A stretch of DNA of 34,742 nucleotides from an uncultured Gammaproteobacteria bacterium. Its GTDB lineage: Bacteria; Pseudomonadota; Gammaproteobacteria; Pseudomonadales; Azotimanducaceae. The stretch is taken from NCBI GenBank assembly GCA_913043815.1, contig CAJWNY010000029.1:1-34742 (forward strand). Direction: 5' to 3'. The notes beneath the pieces were generated by a model. That model saw only the letters and a program-made list of their open reading frames with translations, searched no databases and had not been told where the DNA came from. The translations under genes were made by a program, and so were the position numbers. Shown piece by piece: positions 3,936 to 8,851 of this stretch (position 1 is its first letter; every line of letters begins with the position of its first letter).

Positions 3936-3983
3936 CCGCTTACGGTTGAGTTTTCAATTAGTTAAAAGGGGTTGGTTCACTTC

Positions 3984-4601
3984 ATGCTGGATATAGTTAT
4001 AACAGGCGGCTGGTTGATGTTGCCTATCCTTCTTTGTAGCGTAGTAGTTGGTGCTATTTGCTTGGAGCGGTGGTGGACGTTGCGGCGTGAAGACGTCCTA
4101 CCTGCAGAATTGCTCAGCCAATTGCAGAGTACGCAAACTTGGTCCAGTGATAGCAAAGCGTTAGCTGATCTAGCCGTCGCCTCGCCTTTGGGTTACGTAA
4201 TTGCGGCAGGTTTAAATGGTATCGACCTGCAGACAGAAGCTTTTCAGAGGGTTATACAGTCGACCATAGATAATGTCGCGCATGAGCTTGAACGGTACTT
4301 AACTTTAGTGGGCATCATTGCCTCTATCACTCCCTTGATGGGTATTTTGGGTACGGTCTTTGGCATGATCGACGTCTTTAGCACTTTAGTCTCTGCGGGT
4401 CAGGGAGATGCAAAAGTTCTGGCCGGCGGTATATCTACGGCTCTGGTTACAAGTGCTGCTGGGTTGTCAGTGGCTATCCCGGCTCTGATAGCGCACCGAT
4501 ACTTTTTGCGCAAAGTAGATGAGTTGATCTTGGAAATCGACAGCACAAGTCAACGATTTTTTGACCGTTTGCGGGTTGACGTCAGTGCAGACTCTCATTG
4601 A
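3984..4601 (+). CDS. exbB: ExbB/TolQ/MotA-type proton channel protein
   Basis: Inner-membrane proton-channel subunit of the ExbB/TolQ family, which with ExbD turns proton-motive force into movement of a TonB-like partner. At 205 aa it has the three expected membrane segments: about residues 5-25, then the pair starting at LTLVGIIASITPLMGILG and GGISTALVTSAAGLSVAIP, the conserved family core. I chose ATG 3984; an in-frame TTG at 3972 immediately follows the GGGG at 3968-3971 and so has no room for a ribosome-binding site. Gene order exbB-exbD-lpxK-kdsB is also found in Pseudomonas (PA2983-PA2979), which suggests an envelope or LPS-linked role for this copy instead of classical iron uptake. No tonB lies in the window. 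Confidence 0.88.
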   Translation: MLDIVITGGWLMLPILLCSVVVGAICLERWWTLRREDVLPAELLSQLQSTQTWSSDSKALADLAVASPLGYVIAAGLNGIDLQTEAFQRVIQSTIDNVAHELERYLTLVGIIASITPLMGILGTVFGMIDVFSTLVSAGQGDAKVLAGGISTALVTSAAGLSVAIPALIAHRYFLRKVDELILEIDSTSQRFFDRLRVDVSADSH

Positions 4602-4697: not shown

Positions 4698-5138
4698 TTG
4701 AAGCGCTCAAGGGCCAGTCGCCGCGAAGCGACAGTAGAGTTAACGCCGCTAATAGATGTAGTTTTTTTGCTGCTCATATTTTTTATGGTGTCTACTAGCT
4801 TTGTGCAAAAACAAGCGTTAAACGTTGAACTTCCTCAAGCTAATGGCGAGGCTCAGGCTAGCCAAGACTTGTATATAGACATCCTAGTGCTACAAAACGG
4901 GCGCTTCGAAATAGAGGGTACGGGCGTTGCTGATGCATCATTACAGGGCCTAGCTAAAATCCTTCAAACTGTCATCGAAAAAAAATCAGCGCTCAGCACA
5001 ACTTTACCTGTAGTCATTAGCGCCGATGCAGGCGCGACTCACCAGTCTGTAGTAAGAGTTATGGATGCCTGTGCACAGGTAGGATTAACTCAAATTAGTC
5101 TGGCTACACAGCCAATATTAGAAACCCGTAAGGAATAG
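4698..5138 (+). CDS. exbD: ExbD/TolR family protein
   Basis: Single-pass inner-membrane partner of ExbB, with the C-terminal domain in the periplasm (146 aa). A basic N-terminus (KRSRASRR) is followed by VELTPLIDVVFLLLIFFMVS, where the Asp of LIDVVFLLL is the conserved membrane aspartate needed for proton use. The start is a TTG: an in-frame stop (4683-4685) lies just upstream, no ATG or GTG occurs between it and the membrane segment, and no Shine-Dalgarno is visible. Translation therefore probably depends on the short ORF that ends one base earlier. The N-terminus from TTG matches the family's usual length. The stop lies 9 bases before the next gene. Confidence 0.9.
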   Translation: MKRSRASRREATVELTPLIDVVFLLLIFFMVSTSFVQKQALNVELPQANGEAQASQDLYIDILVLQNGRFEIEGTGVADASLQGLAKILQTVIEKKSALSTTLPVVISADAGATHQSVVRVMDACAQVGLTQISLATQPILETRKE

Positions 5139-5147
5139 GCTACATTT

Positions 5148-8060
5148 ATGGCTCAACCAGCTATAGCGAAACCATCGGATTGGCAAACTTATCGGCGATT
5201 GTTGCGATATGTGGGGCGATATTGGTTCATCATGACATTCTCTGTAGTAGCCTTTTTGTTTGCCGCAGGGGCTGAAGCTTATTTCGTTAAACTTTTTGGT
5301 GAATTGATTGATCAGTGGGATGACCTCAAAGTTAGGGCCGCTGCATCTATACCTGCCATGATGGTGGCGGTGACCCTAGTGCGAGCTGTTGGCACGATTG
5401 TCGGTGAGGCGGCTATGGCGCGCATATCTTTTGGCGTTGTGTATAACCTGCGAGAAGAGTTATTTGCTCAGGTTTTGAAGCTACCTAGTCGCTATTTTGA
5501 TAACGAATCACAAGGGCACATAGTTTCCCGCATTACTTTTACGGTCACACAACTAAGAGATACCGGTACCGAGGCGTTGCGTTCACTTATTCAAGACGGC
5601 GTTAAGGTTGTTGCTTATCTCGGTTTGATGATTTTTCAAAGCTGGCAGCTAACGTTGCTGTTTATTGCTACTGCGCCAGTTTTGGCGTTGGTCGTGGTGT
5701 TCGCAAGCAGTCGATTTCGGAAAATTAGTCGACGTATTCAACACTCAATGGGCGATGTCACTCATGTGGCATCCGAAGCCGTAAACGGTTATCGGGTGGT
5801 AAAGGTCTTTGGCGGCAATTCGCATGAAGAGCAAAGGTTTTTAGGTGCAAATAAAGTTAACCGTCAACAAAACCTCAAGATGGCGGTGACTCGTGTCCTA
5901 AGTTCTCAGATAAACGAAACTATTATCGCCACTGCTTTGTGTGGTTTGATCATTATGCTTTACCGTCCGGAAATTGGCGGTAGTTTGACTAGCGGCGAAG
6001 CCGTGACTTTTCTTGTGCTTGCCGGCATGTTGGGTAAGCCCATTCGCAAACTCTCCGAAGTTAATGCGAAGTTGCAGCGCGGTTTTGCCGCGGCGGAAGA
6101 CATATTTGCACAATTGGATTCGCCCATTGAAGTGGATGGCGGTACTTATACTGTGGAAAAGGCTAAAGGCGCATTGAATTTCGATGACGTTGATTTTGCT
6201 TATAGCGAAGAAGGACCTAGTGTGCTCAGTAAAATTTGTCTGAACATTCAGCCAGGGCAAAGCATAGCGTTAGTAGGTAGGTCGGGGAGCGGTAAATCGA
6301 CGTTGGCTAGTTTGTTGCCGCGGTTTTATGAAATAGGCGGCGGTTGCATAACTTTGGACGGTGTCGACCTACGAAATTATGAGATGAACTGTTTAAGGAA
6401 ACAGATCTCTGTGGTGAATCAACAAGTCACGCTCTTTAATGATACGTTGCGAAATAACGTTGCTTATGGCGACGCTAAGGACGCATCAGGTTATGAAATT
6501 CAAATGGCGTTGGAGCGCGCCTACGCCAGTGAATTTATTGATAAACTTCCAGACGGCATTGATACGGTAGTTGGGGATGACGGCGTTTTGCTCTCTGGCG
6601 GGCAAAGGCAGCGTATAGCCATAGCTAGAGCGCTGTTGAAAGATTCGCCTATTCTAATTATGGATGAGGCTACATCTGCTCTTGACAATGAATCAGAGAA
6701 ATATATTCAGGCCGCGTTAAAAGAGGTTATGAGGGGCCGAACCACGCTGGTTATTGCTCACCGGTTATCAACAGTTGAATCAGCGGACGTGATCGTTGTG
6801 CTGGATCAAGGGCAGGTTGTTGAACAGGGCGATCATAAGTCATTGTTGAATCTTGGTGGGCACTATGCGGAACTTCATGCTGCACAGTTTCAAGATGAGC
6901 CTAAGTCGGAGGGGAAGTTGTCAGTGACTGGTGATTCTCAGACAATAAATTTTACCAATACTAAAAGTATGGCGAAGGTTAACTCCTTTATTGACCGTTC
7001 AGCTAATATTTTGAATCAGGCTTGGTACAGCAATGCGCGTTGGCCGGGTGTTTTAAGACCCCTGTCTTGGCTATACGGTTGGATTAGTCAGCGTCGCGCG
7101 AATGTTTATCGATCAGGCGATAAATTACCGGGCCGTACCTCTTTGCCGGTTATTGTGGTAGGTAACATAACTGCTGGAGGAACGGGTAAAACTCCCTTGG
7201 TCATATGGTTGGTTGAAGAATTGCGACGCAGTGGGTTCAGTCCTGGAATCGTGTCTAGAGGTTACAAAGGTAGTCTTAGCCGCAAAGGCGGACTCGTTCC
7301 TTCACACGCAGACCCGTTGCACTATGGCGACGAGGGCGTGTTACTGAAGAACAGATTAAATTGCCCTGTAGCAATTGGCGTGGACAGGATGAAAGCAATC
7401 ACGCATTTACAGATCGCAAATTGTGACATTGTGATTTCAGATGATGGTTTGCAACATCATGCAATGGGTCGCGACATTGAGATTGTTGTTATAGATGGGG
7501 CGCGCGGGATAGGTAATGGGCTATTGTTACCAGCCGGGCCTTTGAGAGAATCCGTAAGTCGGTTAGCTGAAGTCGACCTCGTAATTTCCAACGGTCGTGC
7601 ATCAGGCCTCGTTATTAACGAAATTGTTATGCACCCTAAAGTCCGATATTTCAGAAGCCTAGCGGATGGTCGCCACTTGACCGCGGCAGAATTTTTACAG
7701 AAAAATAGCGCTGTCCATGCCGTTTGTGGTATCGGAAACCCAAGTCGTTTCTTCTCTACTTTGTCTGGATTAGGTTTTTTAGTAGAGCCCGAGGCCTACA
7801 GCGATCATCATTTATTTACTGGTGAAGAGATTCAATTTTTCGACGCGATGACTGTGGTATGTACGGAGAAAGATGCCACGAAATTAGTTCAGTTGGATAT
7901 TGATTTGACCAAAGTTTGGTCATTGGATATTGATGTTGTGTTCGATCACGATATCGCTAGTACTCTGGCCGCTACACTGACCGAGCGTGGTATAGCGCCA
8001 CTCTCGCCAATGAATGAGCATGACAACAATATCGGCGAGCCCGCTTCGGTTGGAGCTTAG
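5148..8060 (+). CDS. msbA-lpxK: MsbA-LpxK fusion: lipid A exporter joined to lipid A 4'-kinase
   Basis: One uninterrupted 970-residue frame encodes two lipid A proteins. Residues 1 to about 580 are a complete MsbA: six membrane segments, Walker A GRSGSGKS (377-384), signature LSGGQ (482-486), Walker B ILIMDEATSALD (D506, E507) and H-loop His538. MsbA flips core-lipid A across the inner membrane. A Ser/Thr/Lys-rich linker (about 582-607) follows, then a complete LpxK (608-970): the amphipathic start found in LpxK, P-loop VGNITAGGTGKTP (671-683), DDGLQHH (765-771) and TEKDATKL (907-914). LpxK phosphorylates the 4' position of the lipid A precursor on the cytoplasmic face. I read the codons across the join and found no stop. 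An internal ATG (6969, Met608) sits where a free LpxK would start but has no clear ribosome-binding site. kdsB follows after 2 bases. A sequencing error that removed a stop is the main alternative. Confidence 0.93.
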   Translation: MAQPAIAKPSDWQTYRRLLRYVGRYWFIMTFSVVAFLFAAGAEAYFVKLFGELIDQWDDLKVRAAASIPAMMVAVTLVRAVGTIVGEAAMARISFGVVYNLREELFAQVLKLPSRYFDNESQGHIVSRITFTVTQLRDTGTEALRSLIQDGVKVVAYLGLMIFQSWQLTLLFIATAPVLALVVVFASSRFRKISRRIQHSMGDVTHVASEAVNGYRVVKVFGGNSHEEQRFLGANKVNRQQNLKMAVTRVLSSQINETIIATALCGLIIMLYRPEIGGSLTSGEAVTFLVLAGMLGKPIRKLSEVNAKLQRGFAAAEDIFAQLDSPIEVDGGTYTVEKAKGALNFDDVDFAYSEEGPSVLSKICLNIQPGQSIALVGRSGSGKSTLASLLPRFYEIGGGCITLDGVDLRNYEMNCLRKQISVVNQQVTLFNDTLRNNVAYGDAKDASGYEIQMALERAYASEFIDKLPDGIDTVVGDDGVLLSGGQRQRIAIARALLKDSPILIMDEATSALDNESEKYIQAALKEVMRGRTTLVIAHRLSTVESADVIVVLDQGQVVEQGDHKSLLNLGGHYAELHAAQFQDEPKSEGKLSVTGDSQTINFTNTKSMAKVNSFIDRSANILNQAWYSNARWPGVLRPLSWLYGWISQRRANVYRSGDKLPGRTSLPVIVVGNITAGGTGKTPLVIWLVEELRRSGFSPGIVSRGYKGSLSRKGGLVPSHADPLHYGDEGVLLKNRLNCPVAIGVDRMKAITHLQIANCDIVISDDGLQHHAMGRDIEIVVIDGARGIGNGLLLPAGPLRESVSRLAEVDLVISNGRASGLVINEIVMHPKVRYFRSLADGRHLTAAEFLQKNSAVHAVCGIGNPSRFFSTLSGLGFLVEPEAYSDHHLFTGEEIQFFDAMTVVCTEKDATKLVQLDIDLTKVWSLDIDVVFDHDIASTLAATLTERGIAPLSPMNEHDNNIGEPASVGA

Positions 8061-8062
8061 TC

Positions 8063-8851
8063 ATGGCAAAACACATCGTTATACCAGCGAGGTATGCCTC
8101 TTCACGCTTGCCGGGTAAACCTTTGGCGCTCATCAGTGGTGTTCCCATGATTATTCACGTGGCTGCGCTGGCGGCTAAAACAATGGCTGATAACGTTGTG
8201 GTTGCCGTAGATGATCAAGGCGTATTAGATGTGGTTTTGGGTGCTGGCTATCAAGGGCTAATGACTCGGGCAGACCACCCGTCCGGATCAGATAGGGTTA
8301 TGCAAGTAGTCGATGAAATGGGCTGGGAAGATAAAGACCTTGTGATCAATATTCAAGGTGACGAACCTATGTTGCCACCACAAATTGTAGACGACTTGTT
8401 TAAAGCAATGGTCGCAAGAACAAATATCGAAATGGCGACGTTATCTGAACCCATTGCAAAGGGGGGCGATTTTTTAGATCCTAATGTCGTGAAAGTGTTG
8501 GTTGGAGACGATTTGTGCGCAATCAATTTTTCTCGTGCTCCTACGCCTTATCCTCGCGAGTCTATTGACGATGAGGTGTTGTTTAATGCTTTTATGCAAA
8601 GTGGAGTGGCCCGACGACATATTGGCATTTATGGTTTTAGGGTTTCTGGGTTGCGAAGTTTTGTTGGCTTAGGGGAGTCTCGGTTGGAGCGTGTTGAAAA
8701 ATTGGAACAATTGCGCTGGATAGAAGCTCGCAGAGATTTATTGGTTCTTGATGTAAAACAAAAAGTGCCCGGCGGAGTGGATACCCCTGAAGATTTGGCG
8801 AGGGTACAAAAAGAATTCGTGAGCAGCGGACACCTGCCCACAATCCAATAG
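8063..8851 (+). CDS. kdsB: 3-deoxy-manno-octulosonate cytidylyltransferase (CMP-Kdo synthetase)
   Basis: Cytoplasmic enzyme that makes CMP-Kdo from CTP and Kdo, the activated sugar added to lipid A before later acylation and export. At 262 aa it is near the normal length. The N-terminal nucleotide-binding motif IPARYASSRLPGKPL is typical; HPSGSDRV and NIQGDEP (metal and CTP site) follow, and VDTPEDL lies near the C-terminus. The ATG is 2 bases after the MsbA-LpxK stop, with GGAG upstream inside the end of that gene, so the two are surely co-transcribed. In Pseudomonas a small Trm112-like zinc protein gene lies between lpxK and kdsB; it is absent here. Confidence 0.96.
   Translation: MAKHIVIPARYASSRLPGKPLALISGVPMIIHVAALAAKTMADNVVVAVDDQGVLDVVLGAGYQGLMTRADHPSGSDRVMQVVDEMGWEDKDLVINIQGDEPMLPPQIVDDLFKAMVARTNIEMATLSEPIAKGGDFLDPNVVKVLVGDDLCAINFSRAPTPYPRESIDDEVLFNAFMQSGVARRHIGIYGFRVSGLRSFVGLGESRLERVEKLEQLRWIEARRDLLVLDVKQKVPGGVDTPEDLARVQKEFVSSGHLPTIQ

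Follow-up and report, generated by a model that had tools for sequence, protein, structure and literature searches.

The chemistry and topology of the lipid A exporter MsbA and the lipid A 4'-kinase LpxK are established, and MsbA is known to act as a homodimer. In E. coli, msbA and lpxK are co-transcribed, and the excerpted text of PMC10328246 uses "msbA-lpxK" for this operon. Excerpts of PMC6286764 name the catalytic residues of A. aeolicus LpxK (K51, T52, D99, E100, D138, D139, and H261), state that the amphipathic N-terminal helix of LpxK is required for activity and that the enzyme acts at the membrane, describe LpxK as the final step that the pathway absolutely requires, with E. coli exporting lipid IVA and staying viable, and propose it as a second control point. 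In A. baumannii devoid of LpxK, toxic intermediates build up (PMC5555675, in part). Here, we analyze a window of 34,742 nt (the whole stretch of DNA studied, from an uncultured gammaproteobacterium) in which the two functions are encoded by one gene at positions 5148–8060. Gene order and strand are shared with E. coli K-12; there, unlike here, msbA and lpxK are two genes that overlap by 4 bases and are read in different frames. Judged from the single frame that spans both domains and is kept in relatives, the gene in the window is a true gene fusion.

The frame is open from its first ATG, preceded by a purine-rich stretch, to the stop. In the 970-aa protein, Pfam identifies ABC_membrane at residues 30–296, ABC_tran at 361–510, and LpxK (PF02606) at 635–943, the last with 319.6 bits (cut-off 27, E 2.9e-95). 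The MsbA model TIGR02203 matches residues 14–583 over profile positions 1–572 of 572 with 676 bits (cut-off 602), and the lpxK model TIGR00682 matches residues 639–932 with 223.1 bits (cut-off 91.95). The E. coli-centred MsbA model NF008381 yields 577.8 bits, below its cut-off of 867. With the curated cut-offs passed and the junction open in relatives, the matches are beyond chance, and by these models both halves are complete, as a sequence-only reading of this stretch had proposed.

The MsbA half is identical to E. coli K-12 MsbA at 237 of 572 aligned residues, and Walker A, Q-loop, LSGGQ, Walker B with its Glu, and the H-loop His all align with their E. coli counterparts. The fused protein thus resembles MsbA in its full-length match, its ABC motifs, and its neighbors lpxK and kdsB, and differs in that its C-terminus runs on into LpxK and in one basic site. 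Among the four basic lipid-binding residues of E. coli MsbA, which we take to be R78, R148, R296, and K299, the position of the second (residue 149 here) is occupied by Gln, and this Gln is near-invariant in 25 fused relatives. The LpxK half is identical to E. coli K-12 LpxK at 130 of 313 residues, with the P-loop, GDE, and DDG motifs aligned. Compared with LpxK proper (TIGR00682/PF02606; PDB 4ehx), it shares the full-length match over the cut-off and counterparts of all seven catalytic residues named above, which are invariant in 25 fused proteins. A stretch of the form AWY..W..PLSW, rich in W, L, and P, aligns with the LpxK start and is kept in both fused and separate genes. Unlike in LpxK proper, the putative helix in the fused protein is preceded by a linker and an entire ABC transporter and has no free N-terminus.

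The search for MsbA-LpxK proteins in related genomes, advised by the sequence-only reading, was productive. Within the same genus, LpxK was matched in 22 of 24 genomes; 21 of these matches lie in frames of 941–990 aa, the other in one of 820 aa, and the junction is open in all 19 loci fetched. In other families of the order, the LpxK frame is 106–476 aa long in 12 of the 13 genomes with a match. A collection of 43 loci from named genomes contains 25 fused loci (including K189A clade bacterium, marine gamma proteobacterium HTCC2089, and Pseudomonadales bacterium), nine with separate neighboring genes, six with LpxK and no MsbA close by, and three without LpxK. We take the family, whose members are mostly uncultured and marine, to be the KI89A/HTCC2089 group. 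Family-wide, at least 178 of 200 genomes have an LpxK match, and MsbA parts are as little as approximately 43–50% identical to that of the window. LpxK frames shorter than 700 aa number 27 among the matches listed for the family; 23 of these loci were fetched, of which 14 have separate genes, three lack MsbA beside LpxK, and six are fused but interrupted, either by a contig end or inside the MsbA part. In two loci, L138 (G569) and L141 (G458), the frame is broken inside MsbA, away from a contig end, by sequencing error or decay; the junction itself is open.

With identical copies removed, 92 distinct family loci could be classified; 78 of them read through the junction, and the remaining 14 carry separate, unfused genes; since this set consists of best matches plus nearly all short-frame rows, unfused loci are over-represented in it. 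A stop or frameshift at the junction, sought in related genomes at the suggestion of the sequence-only reading, is thus absent from most and represented by a minority of unfused loci. The window comes from a 133-contig assembly, which would suit an artefact of assembly or sequencing as the source of the open junction. For the family, this explanation is refuted by the open junctions, which come from many assemblies and include all seven single-contig genomes examined (G405, G337, G459, G471, G473, G475, and G514), and we consider it hardly credible. The genome of the window, approximately 90% complete, was also searched for a second msbA or lpxK, and none was found: PF02606 matches once, and, for the MsbA half, the next-best match shares 35% identity, a level typical of ordinary ABC exporters. 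WaaA, LpxB, and LpxC are each encoded by separate genes in this genome.

The history of the fusion was reconstructed on a tree of joined MsbA and LpxK alignments (65 rows). The family forms one clade (Shimodaira-Hasegawa-like approximate likelihood-ratio test 97), with three changes of the fused/separate trait by parsimony. A single clade of fused family loci is rejected (approximately unbiased, AU, test, p 1.25e-5), as is the placement of the separate loci of genus g16 with the outgroups (AU p 1.24e-5); hence, by this tree, at least g16 re-split the fused gene, and this is the only firm split in the family. A second split was considered and weakened, as genus g20 can be moved to the outgroups at a cost of just 0.96 log units (p-AU 0.47) and might never have carried the fusion. 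In G529 (L145:3819-4901), a 360-aa lpxK frame starts with about a dozen MsbA-like N-terminal residues joined in frame and is flanked upstream by exbB and exbD and downstream by kdsB; the rest of MsbA is absent there, and the best MsbA-like matches elsewhere in this genome are 30–35% identical full-length proteins plus shorter pieces. This frame is possibly a relic of a fused gene that lost the body of MsbA in frame, an assembly fault being the alternative.

We searched 369 genomes of the class, including that of the window, with a profile built from 25 fused proteins (that of the window and those of 24 among the 25 fused named loci; the truncated L042 was excluded). At least ten other genomes, from nine families, gave a stop-free match across both domains, and all ten were confirmed as fused at the locus level. 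Three of these carriers have genomes of 0.9–1.3 Mb and form one clade. A single origin is rejected both for all fusions (p-AU 4e-44) and for those outside the family (p-AU 1e-4). A quick tree has ten trait changes in all, with many weak branches, so that the number of gains is uncertain. On these trees, the fusion is old and widespread in the family and has further separate origins elsewhere. Among the matches listed for 299 genomes of the phylum (E 1e-150), stop-free double matches comprise the window and one genome already found, and none comes from another class; in a plasmid search, the ten matches listed were all in two pieces, i.e., separate genes. A long open frame was discarded as a sufficient sign of fusion, since a 968-aa frame at LpxK in G126 has msbA in another frame, and since 19 of 20 further loci fetched for their long reported frames have separate genes, the twentieth (L195, G634) lacking an LpxK match. 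One fusion carrier, L059, derives from a short-read assembly of the same sponge sample as the pateamine producer 'Candidatus Patea custodiens'; its identity with that organism was considered and rejected, as the latter is assigned to Kiritimatiellaeota in the excerpted text of PMC7157528.

Fusions of neighboring pathway genes are known as a kind, and this one is like them in joining two related, adjacent genes in one frame. It is unlike them in two respects. Firstly, it combines an integral membrane ABC exporter with a soluble kinase that docks to the membrane and whose reaction precedes export by several steps. Secondly, it is recurrent and family-wide. The sequence-only reading knew of no described example, and we likewise found no published MsbA-LpxK fusion among the papers listed in full-text searches, as judged from titles and the opening lines of abstracts, a scope outside which lie subscription papers, preprints, and protein-database architecture pages. 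What is new to us is this pair, its spread, and its repetition.

The linker was initially given as 25 residues. A linker indeed exists, while its length depends on the measuring points: between the conserved anchors F581 and W626, it comprises 44 residues in the window, 29–55 (median 39) in the 78 distinct fused family loci, and 25–53 in the ten fusions of other families. Residues A, S, P, E, R, and G are abundant in it, and it contains no invariant columns (0/44) in 25 fused proteins, as compared with 93 of 251 in the nucleotide-binding domain (NBD) and 63 of 320 in LpxK. A minimum length without sequence conservation fits a segment that must bridge the ATPase domain and the membrane, and the fact that the linker is never shorter than 29 residues in the family loci is as expected of a tether that needs reach. 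Tails of separate MsbA proteins past F581 are shorter (median five residues, n = 54), which points to more than the bare loss of a stop codon.

A polar and variable linker also resembles a protease-accessible segment, and the fused chain might be cleaved, or LpxK also started internally, yielding two proteins as usual. No conserved cleavage motif was found in the linker columns of the 25 fused proteins. A free LpxK starting from the internal ATG at 6969, as once suggested, is not supported: the codon exists, but nothing like a Shine-Dalgarno sequence immediately precedes it, and just 6 of the 78 distinct family loci have an ATG equally far from W626. Any ATG is present in 28 of the 78 family linkers, and none of the 78 has one that follows a Shine-Dalgarno-like sequence. 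The same combination was found in 7 of 78 NBD stretches of equal length and, with Fisher p 2e-4 against the linkers, at 9 of the 53 separate lpxK starts, so that the test has low sensitivity, 44 of the 53 real starts failing it, and counts as weak evidence. In-linker GTG or TTG codons are common, and in five of the 78 family linkers, including that of the window, one follows a Shine-Dalgarno-like sequence; a start codon of some kind lies inside the linker in 92 of 102 rows (not deduplicated). One of the ten fusions from other families does have a linker ATG with a Shine-Dalgarno-like sequence. Taken together, we regard the production of two separate proteins as improbable.

A neutral origin deserves more weight. 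In this explanation, the msbA stop was lost, the two co-translated genes were joined, and the product, no worse in function than the separate proteins, was inherited without gain beyond co-expression. The genes are adjacent in most classifiable loci examined, and in E. coli K-12 they already overlap. Many members of the class have msbA and lpxK in a common frame, crossed by the profile with just one stop codon in the way, so that one or a few mutations suffice for fusion; such fusions, at junctions that are near in-frame in many genomes, can arise neutrally. Several gains and at least one reversal would also be in keeping with neutrality. On the other hand, the fusion has been kept across a family whose MsbA parts have diverged to the identities given above, the linker exceeds the tails of separate MsbA proteins, and the adjacent lpxK-kdsB junction, which is equally tight, with a median family gap of 2 bp, is unfused in all 86 loci with a readable kdsB (fusion in 0/72 fused and 0/14 separate). 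The exbD-msbA and exbB-exbD junctions are likewise unfused (each 0/24 in fused-type and 0/12 in separate-type loci, i.e., 0/36). Hence, a general drift of tight neighbors to fusion is not the explanation. On balance, neutral inheritance seems to us quite possible, though we would not expect it.

We lean, if only slightly, towards a functional tethering of LpxK to MsbA. Several points weigh against it, in addition to the capacity of such junctions for neutral fusion: 14 of the 92 distinct family loci have separate genes; loss is tolerated, as in the re-split g16 clade of nine loci; and the exbD-msbA comparison is weakened by topology, since ExbD has a periplasmic C-terminus.

Under functional tethering, the MsbA homodimer would carry two LpxK kinases per flippase, a predicted geometry in which each kinase hangs on the cytoplasmic C-terminus of an NBD by a flexible tether of 25–55 residues. 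The MsbA ATPase domains and LpxK are both on the cytoplasmic side, and the tether would let the amphipathic N-terminal helix of LpxK reach the inner leaflet. Placed beside the pump, LpxK would convert disaccharide-1-phosphate to lipid IVA; WaaA, encoded separately here, and the late acyltransferases would act next, and MsbA would then flip the product. The steps of LpxK and MsbA are indeed non-adjacent, as had been pointed out; yet, with LpxK rated as the final essential step (PMC6286764, in part) and E. coli able to export lipid IVA, the fusion links the exporter to the final synthetic reaction that the cell cannot do without. The 1:1 ratio of the two activities, also noted earlier, follows from the sequence, and its benefit would be that a fixed ratio and co-location with the exit keep phosphorylation capacity from outrunning export. 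From the sequences, we infer a single polypeptide in the cell, the dimer geometry, and this benefit alike. More tentatively, and rather doubtfully, MsbA-LpxK might be a built-in assembly-and-export unit, with LpxK possibly sensing the opening and closing of the NBDs, so that export meters the commitment, in the membrane, of the disaccharide to lipid A.

If the tether is functional, the lipid A kinase and the flippase work side by side, and both the matching of synthesis to export and a possible role of LpxK as a control point become directly testable with one natural protein and its re-split relatives. If the assembly-and-export unit is real, the repeated fusion, its family-wide keeping, and the specificity of the junction would be the mark of selection, and an undescribed, non-covalent coupling of LpxK and MsbA would be expected in ordinary Gram-negative bacteria as well. 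The fused protein also lends itself to structural studies as a natural single chain, and one lineage allows fused, re-split, and apparently pathway-free members to be compared.

The pathway-free members are nine genomes of the same family, 79–100% complete: G418, G441, G461, G477, and G493 (g149), G421 and G444 (g152), G429 (g160), and G438 (g169). In this set, LpxK is not among the matches listed, LpxC and LpxB gave no match, the Kdo (3-deoxy-D-manno-octulosonate) transferase family gave none over the cut-off (one sub-cut-off match in G438), and MsbA was matched only by ABC exporters of 27–36% identity. Omp85 is present in all nine, and these bacteria are apparently diderms that lost lipid A synthesis, as judged from gene content. 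Three other genomes, G466 and G481 (g21) and G489 (g18), have LpxC, LpxB, and the Kdo transferase family, with no MsbA-grade match and no LpxK among the matches listed; the G481 assembly consists of approximately eight contigs.

Features of the fused msbA-lpxK gene and its neighborhood in the window
Feature	Position	Strand	Basis
Fused msbA-lpxK gene	5148..8060	+	970 codons plus stop, open from ATG to stop
MsbA part, residues 1-581 (membrane and nucleotide-binding domains)	5148..6890	+	TIGR02203, ABC_membrane, ABC_tran
MsbA Walker A, residues 377-384	6276..6299	+	Aligned with E. coli MsbA 376-383
ABC signature LSGGQ, residues 482-486	6591..6605	+	Alignment
MsbA Walker B D506 and catalytic E507	6663..6668	+	Alignment; invariant in 25 fused proteins
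H-loop His538	6759..6761	+	Alignment; invariant in 25 fused proteins
Polar linker, residues 582-625, of variable length and sequence	6891..7022	+	Alignment of 25 fused proteins
Internal ATG, codon 608, proposed free-LpxK start, not supported	6969..6971	+	Sequence inspection
LpxK part, residues 626-970	7023..8057	+	PF02606, TIGR00682
N-terminal helix region of LpxK part (approximate), residues 626-655	7023..7112	+	Analogy with A. aeolicus LpxK; extent estimated
LpxK P-loop GGTGKT, residues 677-682	7176..7193	+	Aligned with PDB 4ehx and E. coli; K681/T682 = K51/T52 of A. aeolicus
LpxK D728-E729 = D99-E100 of A. aeolicus LpxK	7329..7334	+	PDB 4ehx alignment
LpxK Walker B D765-D766 = D138-D139 of A. 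aeolicus, by motif	7440..7445	+	Alignment
H887 = catalytic H261 of A. aeolicus LpxK	7806..7808	+	PDB 4ehx alignment
ExbB/TolQ-type proton channel, first gene of conserved neighborhood	3972..4601	+	PF01618
ExbD/TolR-type protein, directly upstream of fused gene	4698..5138	+	PF02472
kdsB, own frame, two bases past the stop of the fused gene	8063..8851	+	TIGR00466 over cut-off

The gene order in the window is exbB-exbD-[msbA-lpxK]-kdsB. Elsewhere in the same genome, two LpxC matches were observed (G000:C1:72220-73035 and G000:C7:7172-7987; E 5.4e-102 and 1.3e-93, respectively), and the single-contig genome G405 likewise has two.

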